Of a DNA stretch of 64,000 nucleotides, positions 8,614 to 42,116 are shown in pieces. A program made the translations under genes and the position numbers. Origin of the DNA: Natrinema sp. CBA1119 (GTDB taxonomy: Archaea > Halobacteriota > Halobacteria > Halobacteriales > Natrialbaceae); contig NZ_PDBS01000001.1 of assembly GCF_002572525.1 (NCBI RefSeq), positions 558,001 to 622,000 of the forward strand. The letters run 5' to 3'. Position 1 is the first letter of the stretch. Each line of letters starts with the position of its first letter. The notes under the pieces were generated by a model that made no database searches, was not told the DNA's origin, and saw only the letters and a list, made by a program, of their open reading frames with translations.

Positions 8614-8809
8614 ACGTCACTGCACACCTGATCGAACGACGCGAGCGCGGTTCGGAGCGAGCGCGGTTCGGAGCGAACGGAGTGAGCGAGAACCGCGGGA
8701 ACGCGAACGGTGAGCGAAGCGAGCCGTGAGCAAACGAAGTGAGCGAGAACCGCGAACGAGAACCGCGGACTGTGCGATCGGTGTGTAAATCGTTTCAATT
8801 GGTACTATA
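8601..8809. mobile_element. MITE-like element with GC-rich insert (copy A)
   Basis: The left end TAGTAGCCACTGAACGTCA and the right end (GTGTGTAAATCGTTTCAATT then GGTACTATA) match the two ends of the compact 82-base elements at 13396 and 61666. Between them is about 130 bases of a GC-rich repeat built on GAGCGAGAACCGCG and GAGCGAAGCGAGCCGTGAGC. The same core recurs at 13262-13370 and, inverted, at 16480-16625. No transposase is encoded, so mobilisation would be in trans. Confidence 0.7.
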
Positions 8810-13237: not shown

Positions 13238-13394
13238 GTGGCTGCACACACGACCGCACGACGGGAGCGCGGTTCGGAGCGAACGGAGTGAGCGAGAACC
13301 GCGGGAATGCGAACGGCGAGCGAAGCGAGCCGTGAGCAAACGGAGCGAGCGAGAACCGCGGACTGTGCGATCGGCGTATGAATCGTTTCAGTGA
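13238..13394. mobile_element. MITE-like element with GC-rich insert, truncated (copy B1)
   Basis: It contains the same GC-rich core as copy A (GAGCGCGGTTCGGAGCGAACGGAGTGAGCG and on to GCGGACTGTGCGATCGG). It is followed by the right arm GAATCGTTTCAGTG, which breaks off where copy B2 begins. The left terminus is diverged (GTGGCTGCACACACGACCG). The break suggests that B2 inserted into, or recombined with, the end of B1. Confidence 0.55.
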
Positions 13395-41032: not shown

Positions 41033-41782
41033 ATGGATTGTCCGACGTGTGGGAAATCTCTCCGGACGACGCAAGGAATGCGACAGCATCACACGAAGGT
41101 ACACGGTGATCCGCTTCCGAACCGAACGTGTAGCGGCTGTGAAACCGAATTCTACGATCCGAAAGCACAGCGAGACTACTGCGAGAGCTGTAATCCGAAC
41201 GGTGGCGAACACAACGGAAACTGGAGCGATGCCACGGAAACTGCGGACTGTAAACGCTGTGGCTCGACGTTTTCGTACTATCCGTCGTCCAAGAAAGGCG
41301 TCTACTGTTCGGAGTGTGTCGAAGCTGCCGAGGGCCTCCTCCCGGACAACTACGCTGTAAAAGGCGATAGAATAACGGTACGGTGCCAGTCTTGTGGGAA
41401 CGGCCTCGAGGTTCGTCCGGCGAGGGTCGACGAACAGAAACGGGGCTTCTTCTGTACGTTGGACTGTTATGGAGACTGGCTTTCGGAGAACGTCGTCGGC
41501 CCGGACCACCATCAGTGGGAGGGCGGGAGGATCGAATACGGCCGTACGTGGTGGCGTATTCGCCGGCGAGCACTCGAGCGGGACGCGTACACGTGTCAGC
41601 ATTGTGGCGCAGAGAAGGCGGAACTCGAGCGGAACCCGGATGTGCATCATCCCCAGCCCGTTCGGTCGTTCGACGACCCTGAGGACGCACACACGATGGA
41701 GAACGTGATTTCCCTCTGCCGGAGCTGTCATCGACGAGCCGAGGAGGGACAGATAGCCGTTTCCCCTCACGCCGAAAAGTAA
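41033..41782 (+). CDS. Multi-zinc-finger HNH endonuclease
   Basis: A 249-residue protein. It opens with a C2H2 finger (CPTCGKSLRTTQGMRQHHTKVHG, residues 3-25). Paired CxxC zinc knuckles follow near 32-52, 70-93 and 118-145. It ends with an HNH nuclease domain (TCQHCGAEKAELERNPDVHHPQPVRSFDDP and on to NVISLCRSCHRR, about 186-238), in which VHHPQPV supplies the catalytic and metal-binding histidines. The middle region WWRIRRRALERD is the usual lead-in to an HNH domain. Such free-standing genes are often homing-type or phage-type nucleases. It ends 36 bases before the tandem tRNA-derived units at 41819. A mobile character is suspected but not proven. Confidence 0.88.
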   Translation: MDCPTCGKSLRTTQGMRQHHTKVHGDPLPNRTCSGCETEFYDPKAQRDYCESCNPNGGEHNGNWSDATETADCKRCGSTFSYYPSSKKGVYCSECVEAAEGLLPDNYAVKGDRITVRCQSCGNGLEVRPARVDEQKRGFFCTLDCYGDWLSENVVGPDHHQWEGGRIEYGRTWWRIRRRALERDAYTCQHCGAEKAELERNPDVHHPQPVRSFDDPEDAHTMENVISLCRSCHRRAEEGQIAVSPHAEK

Positions 41783-41818
41783 CACTATTGTGATGCCGTC
41801 GTCTATTCCCTATCAGGA

Positions 41819-42013
41819 AGTCCCGTGGTGGTGAGCAGTTCCTCTGGAACTGCGATCCTCACGGGGCTTCAAACGCAGTGAGAAGTCCCGTGGTGGTGAG
41901 CAGTTCCTCTGGAACTGCGATCCTCACGGGGCTTCAAACGCAGTGAGAAGTCCCGTGGTGGTAAGCGAATCCTTTGGGTTCGCGAACGACACGGGACGAC
42001 GAGTGAAACGAGG
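41819..42013 (+). ncRNA. Three tandem 65-base tRNA-Gln-derived hairpin units
   Basis: Three units start at 41819, 41884 and 41949, and the tRNA-Gln gene starts at 42014, an exact 65-base period. Each unit begins AGTCCCGTGGTG, identical to the first 12 bases of the tRNA. Units 1 and 2 are identical; unit 3 differs over much of its body. All can fold into a hairpin closed by CCCGTG/CACGGG (the tRNA acceptor strand paired with a new 3' strand). The apical stem is GCAGTTCC/GGAACTGC in units 1-2 but GCGAATCC/GGGTTCGC in unit 3, so both sides changed together. That is the mark of a conserved RNA fold. Transcription and function are inferred; an alternative is a DNA-level duplication with no RNA role. 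Confidence 0.6.
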
Positions 42014-42116
42014 AGTCCCGTGGTGTAGTGGCCAATCATATGGGCCTTTGGACGTGTTCGGTACGCTCCGTCACGGAAGCAAGCCCATGACGGCGGTTCG
42101 AATCCGCCCGGGACTA
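42014..42116 (+). tRNA. tRNA-Gln(TTG) with a 30-base intron
   Basis: The acceptor stem is AGTCCCG (42014-42020)/CGGGACT (42109-42115) with discriminator A. The T-arm is GGCGG-TTCGAAT-CCGCC. The anticodon stem is TGGGC (42041-42045)/GCCCA (42083-42087), with loop C-T-TTG-G-A after splicing, giving anticodon TTG at 42048-42050. The intron is 42052-42081, between positions 37 and 38. Its ends form a bulge-helix-bulge: central helix CTTT/GAAG, three-base bulges GGA and CAA, inner stem CGTG/CACG. Spliced length is 73. CCA is not encoded. An intron in this tRNA is known from other haloarchaea. Confidence 0.95.

Follow-up and report, generated by a model that had tools for sequence, protein, structure and literature searches.

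The tRNA-Gln(UUG) gene of Natrinema sp. CBA1119 is preceded by three 65-nt hairpin units in exact register with it, and these units look like members of an undescribed repeat that is rebuilt from tRNA gene ends and occurs class-wide in Halobacteria. The units are probably transcribed together with the tRNA. They lie in a 64,000-nucleotide stretch of contig NZ_PDBS01000001.1 (the window). Few genes have been studied as much as those for tRNAs, yet in this genome nearly half of them (about 20/47) are accompanied by a nearby copy of their own 5' end, 3' end, or both. More than half of the Halobacteriales genomes that we scanned have 5' units. Units that are transcribed would amount to a new kind of pre-tRNA leader and trailer, and units made at the DNA level would reveal a copying process, so far unrecognised, that acts on tRNA ends.

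At this locus, AGTCCCGTGGTG is present four times at exact 65-base spacing, in the three units and in the tRNA gene, whose first 12 nt form the final R copy of the array. The exact period described in the first-pass annotation is therefore borne out by the coordinates and by this repeated sequence. Unit 2 repeats unit 1 without a difference (100% identity); unit 3, at 68% identity, keeps R (AGTCCCGTGGTG) with both sides of the apical stem altered. The compensatory change claimed for this stem is real: GCAGTTCC/GGAACTGC is replaced by GCGAATCC/GGGTTCGC, with one T.G pair included. The units fold far more strongly than shuffled sequence as RNA (z of -6.45 and -4.39) and likewise as DNA (z of -4.8 and -3.7), and the unit 1 R1 match in the covariance-model search had an E value of 3.7e-17. 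Because of its intron of ~30 to 31 nt, ARAGORN misses or mislabels tRNA-Gln(UUG).

Table 1. Features of the tRNA-Gln(UUG) locus of Natrinema sp. CBA1119 (window positions)
Feature	Position	Strand	Evidence
HNH endonuclease ORF adjoining the array, outside the unit system	41033..41782	+	PF01844 28.9 bits, cut-off 21.4
Promoter-like motif AAGTAACACTATTGTG of the tRNA-Gln leader (putative promoter)	41777..41792	+	conserved in relatives
Unit 1: R (AGTCCCGTG), A hairpin 41835-41853 (GCAGTTCC/GGAACTGC), R' 41860-41867, tail B	41819..41883	+	repeat spacing, folding, covariation
Unit 2, same sequence as unit 1	41884..41948	+	repeat comparison, covariance-model search
Unit 3: same R, apical stem GCGAATCC/GGGTTCGC, R' CACGGGAC, B mini-hairpin GA-GT-GAA-AC-GA	41949..42013	+	E 2.2e-16
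tRNA-Gln(UUG) gene, ~30-31-nt intron at about 42052-42082	42014..42116	+	Rfam RF00005, 50.7 bits

The order of a unit is R-A-R'-B-[R of the tRNA], in which R copies the first ~9 to 12 nt of the adjoining tRNA gene, R' is R inverted, A forms a GA...GA-closed hairpin, and B is a mini-hairpin GA-xy-NNN-y'x'-GA with a loop that is mostly GNA. We measured covariation in 33 distinct tRNA-Gln units from this and other genomes, picked by 5' sequence rather than by pairing. In this set, 96.0% of stem cells were paired, versus 87.3% after shuffling and 23 to 49% when the partner was slid by 1 to 3 columns. Two-sided changes affected 51 cells (17 expected), and 10 of the 16 pairs had changed on both sides. 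Together with the folding scores, this covariation bears out the description of the units as tRNA-end-derived hairpins with maintained stems. Non-Watson-Crick cells were G.U in 30 cases versus A.C in 6 (25 versus 2 on the 3' side alone). This bias was not built in by selection, because the set was chosen by 5' sequence and not by pairing, though its related sequences are not independent; the count was taken from these 33 units alone, a larger 96-unit set being biased by its pairing-based extraction. The excess of G.U over A.C suggests that the folded sense strand is under selection, either as RNA or as single-stranded DNA. Among the B tails, 48/79 form both mini-stem pairs (1.0 expected after shuffling), with the variants AC/GT, GT/AC, and GC/GC. 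As DNA, GNA mini-hairpins of this kind have an unusually high stability, and this is part of why we favour a DNA-level process.

Among the curated Rfam models, nothing but tRNA passed the gathering score, and relaxing the E value added chance microRNA and CRISPR matches. A CRISPR array was rejected: the units are contiguous 65-mers with no spacers. The loop GTGGTGA/GANNNN keeps a tandem GA, but it has no consistent 3-nt bulge or 4-bp central helix, and we therefore do not claim a canonical kink-turn, bulge-helix-bulge, or C/D or H/ACA guide, all of which were judged by eye.

The apical body GGTGAGC-stem-GCGA is common to isotypes, and the outer arms follow the local tRNA; the same A body was found at Gln, Gly, and Thr tRNAs. 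All 96 extracted units had arms matching their own tRNA, a rate conditioned on a filter of at least 5/6 arm bases. The extraction was centred on body and structure, and the spread of arm types is informative (GCGCCGG, GCGGCGG, GCGGCGA, GCACCGG, GTGCCGG, GCGCTGG, AGTCCCG, and AGTCCCA). Where the acceptor stem of a species' tRNA has changed, the unit arms have changed along with it, and at 12/12 cells where a unit's own R had drifted, R' was able to pair with the R of the tRNA. A passive slippage scar, in which part of the tRNA 5' end was duplicated in tandem and palindrome correction during replication alone kept the stems perfect, with no selection, would give direct repeats, identical units 1 and 2, and inverted loops. 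We consider this origin improbable, since it leaves unexplained an A body common to different tRNAs, the conserved GA closures, the B mini-hairpins, and the G.U bias. The earlier suggestion of a "scar of repeated insertion" comes close to the tRNA-end repeat that we prefer.

A covariance model built from the units matched 163/292 Halobacteriales genomes and 50/77 genera at an E value of ≤1e-5; in a first run, 49/61 genomes had a match at an E value of ≤0.5. Of the three findings that the first-pass annotation had named as refuting its reading, two, a lack of homologous units in other genomes and a lack of covariation in an alignment of several units, were contradicted. A scan of 84,980 prokaryotic species with a strict apical pattern gave 50 matches, all in Halobacteria, 48 of them on the 5' side of a tRNA remnant or of a gene for tRNA-Gly, -Gln, or -Thr. 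When we inspected 40 of the strongest covariance-model matches outside the training loci, all 40 were directly 5' of tRNA-Gly or tRNA-Gln. Twenty weaker matches were mixed: seven were 5' of tRNA-Gly, most others were antisense beside or near a tRNA 3' end, and two (L240 and L258) had no tRNA in reach. The looser pattern TGAGCN15-16GCGA was overwhelmed by chance matches in the three genomes searched. In Natrinema sp. CBA1119, two units also precede tRNA-Gly(CCC), the second such locus, and no units were found at those tRNA-Asp genes whose 5' end is similar. The recurrence of the same few tRNAs across the class and the unit-free tRNA-Asp genes hint at a function, and one in tRNA maturation is possible. 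At one Natrialba swarupiae locus (L229), a unit chain is followed by an apparent tRNA-Gly 3' end alone, as if a unit had replaced the tRNA core.

The number of units varies from 0 to 3 among close species, and many species have none. Decayed copies were seen among the tRNA-Gln leaders (L051, L074, and unit 1 of L077), and the apical loop is inverted (GAT/ATC) between close species. In a probable Haloferax genus (g71, with a 31-nt tRNA-Gln intron), tRNA-Gly(CCC) has three units in the order a,b,c in one species and a,c,b in two species, and no units in a fourth; these arrays end exactly at the tRNA 5' end. Downstream of the same tRNA in probable Haloferax (L308 to L310), we also observed the tRNA 3' end GGTTCAATTCCCGGTCGGCGCA copied once or several times in tandem. 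Deletion between direct repeats of 10 to 19 bp has been described for haloarchaea, in work on Haloquadratum walsbyi (PMC3119063).

The first-pass annotation had also proposed that the adjacent gene, described as an HNH nuclease rich in zinc knuckles, could be a mobile partner of the units. The HNH assignment held (PF01844), and the zinc-finger matches fell below the cut-off. The ORF has haloviral homologues (~34% identity) and belongs to an ordinary HNH family. Its 3' end is overlapped by the promoter-like motif. An origin of the units through this protein, acting as a mobile endonuclease on the 5' end of the tRNA, is favoured by the HNH gene adjoining the array in Natrinema sp. CBA1119 and some related genomes. 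However, among 81 tRNA-Gln loci an HNH-like motif was present upstream in 18/34 with units and 19/47 without (Fisher p = 0.37), so no association was found, and the 16 unit-bearing loci that lack the motif contradict an HNH origin. The protein also comes from an ordinary haloviral HNH family, and we regard this origin as very improbable.

We collected tRNA-Gln(UUG) loci from 60 relatives and inspected their leaders. The distance from AAGTAACACTATTGTG to the tRNA was 40 to 48 nt in most unit-free genomes, ~102 to 116 nt with one unit (129 in one case), 163 to 182 with two, and 237 with three (Natrinema sp. CBA1119). Subtracting 65 per unit nearly always returned the distance to about 37 to 52 nt; the units therefore lie between the promoter-like motif and the tRNA and would be expected in the pre-tRNA leader. 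A conserved, covarying fold between tRNA and promoter, the latter putative from its conservation, is the arrangement of a structured pre-tRNA leader RNA. In the published map of Haloferax volcanii, one tRNA, tRNA-Gly(CCC), has an exceptional 300-nt leader, and tRNA-Gly(TCC) has no proximal start site (PMC4983044). Since these tRNAs are of isotypes that carry unit arrays, the units are likely transcribed as part of the tRNA leader. Two promoter types were observed among 61 tRNA-Gln leaders, AAGTAACACTATTGTG (P1) and AACAATAACTCATAAGCC (P2). Units accompanied P1 in 25/42 leaders versus 1/14 for P2 (p = 0.0006, uncorrected for relatedness), a suggestive association with one promoter type.

A strong rival is that the units are a selected RNA module: hairpins in the leader that mimic the acceptor stem and have a role in the dosage or the maturation of pre-tRNA. 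They might serve as RNase P decoys or pacing hairpins, or work as a switch, with R' pairing either with the unit's R or with the 5' strand of the tRNA. The earlier suggestion of small RNAs cut by RNase P/Z is possible as well. Stem covariation, a sense strand that tolerates G.U and avoids A.C, the confinement of units to leaders of a few isotypes across the class, and the preference for one promoter type would all fit such a module, and the pairing of R' with the tRNA's R at every drifted cell would permit a unit-unit/unit-tRNA switch. Set against these are the swings from 0 to 3 units among close species, the many species with none, and the decayed copies. We hold a selected RNA module to be possible rather than probable, and the sites described below weigh on the same question.

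The wider family extends to tRNA 3' ends. We searched for a second copy of the last 16 nt, allowing at most 2 mismatches, and found one 86 to 164 nt downstream of 18/47 tRNA genes of Natrinema sp. CBA1119; shuffled flanks gave 0.0. These copies are ordered T-hairpin-T'-B-T, the topology of the 5' units. At such loci (e.g., L144, L147, L152, L154, L166, L168, L330, and L331), a hairpin and an inverted T-arm come before the copy, often together with 'AGTCGCAGC...GACCGTCTT'. In the same genome, 5' copies with hairpin character occur at five tRNAs (Gln-UUG, Gly-CCC, Glu-CTC, Glu-TTC, and Thr-CGT); a sixth match, at Thr-TGT, may be due to chance (2.1 expected at that tolerance). In other genomes, A-type units lie antisense at the 3' end of some tRNA-Ala and tRNA-Arg genes. 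A related chain is in frame within a 390-aa open frame of Natrinema sp. CBA1119 (L258, C1:1395866-1395929, minus strand), where it translates as ...SDGGE... repeats, and one other family (f6) has more such chains (L268, L272, L278, and L281); these are related chains and not window units. Chains in ORFs and other non-leader sites fall mainly within one family. The antisense units and the in-frame chains fit no tRNA-leader function and argue against one that is exclusive, which also counts against the selected RNA module.

Our preferred reading is a haloarchaeal tRNA-end repeat element that arises and disappears through copying at the DNA level, travels in the leader, and is taken off by RNase P; we judge its chances to be evenly balanced. 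Its direct basis is the anatomy of the units, their covariation, the match to their own tRNA, their leader position and distribution, and the differences in presence and order between species; transcription at the tRNA-Gln locus, removal by RNase P, and the DNA mechanism are what we infer in it. The leader modules would be transcribed as acceptor-stem-like hairpins and discarded with the RNase P cut at the 5' end of the tRNA. They would be gained, and re-matched to their own tRNA, by DNA-level copying at tRNA gene ends, through snap-back template switching or cassette-like recombination at folded single strands. A double snap-back or a cassette-like reaction at folded tRNA ends could yield R-A-R'-B-R directly, and recombination between direct R copies could lose or multiply units. 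Any mechanism is constrained by arms that consist of the adjacent tRNA end and its inverted copy, by shared GA-closed loops and boundary R repeats, by rapid gain, loss, and shuffling, and by selection on the folded strand. The last counts against the tRNA-end repeat, in that a purely passive DNA process would not need a selected folded sense strand. We offer more speculatively, and consider rather unlikely, a process dedicated to recognising tRNA gene ends in folded form and to copying them, direct and inverted, into flanking arrays: an integron-like or template-switching system with the tRNA acceptor end as its att site, whose leader and trailer hairpins tune tRNA maturation.

Integron attC cassette arrays are tandem, bounded by short direct core repeats, and have an imperfect hairpin per unit. 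The unit arrays resemble them in having tandem hairpin units between direct core repeats, a resemblance only, but hold no genes, and their core is a tRNA gene end. Like the tRNA-gene att sites of integrative elements, the 3' units duplicate at least 16 nt of the tRNA 3' end; unlike them, the copies are ~0.1 kb apart, too short for an integrase gene, include an internal inverted copy, and use both 5' and 3' ends. Rickettsia palindromic elements carry their own conserved ends, whereas the arms of the units copy the adjoining tRNA end. Those elements are small palindromic repeats also found in frame inside ORFs (PMC10969869), and similar in-frame insertion was seen here in related chains (L258, L268, L272, L278, and L281) and not in the window units. 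They form families of ~150 bp (PMC10969869), in contrast to units of ~65 bp in in-register arrays at tRNA genes. The small mobile repeats, PATEs, and MITEs of H. walsbyi are likewise short, palindromic, and transposase-free, with loss via 10- to 19-bp direct repeats, but they are defined by their own terminal sequences, and the available part of their description contains no family with arms matching a target tRNA (PMC3119063). A MITE or small mobile repeat would have termini conserved independently of site; the units do not, as R and R' change with the adjoining tRNA. As for MITE-like dispersal, the strict body was at tRNAs or a tRNA remnant in 48/50 matches, with related chains elsewhere mainly in one family. 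The units occupy the position of RNase P-cut pre-tRNA 5' leaders, and for H. volcanii tRNA-Gly(CCC) a leader of 300 nt is reported (PMC4983044); in the open-access literature we found no description of leaders in which a tRNA's own 5' end is copied in tandem. The earlier statement that no described system has this layout agrees with our search of that literature, which also gave no described family whose tested features the units display.

Two minor observations concern other repeats. The B-loop motif CGAACGAAGTGAG occurs at three other window sites (8674-8686, 8731-8743, and 13280-13292; 0.2 expected by chance). The motif TGAGCGAGAACCGCGGGAATGCGA recurs at many sites of the Natrinema sp. CBA1119 genome and is apparently another dispersed repeat.
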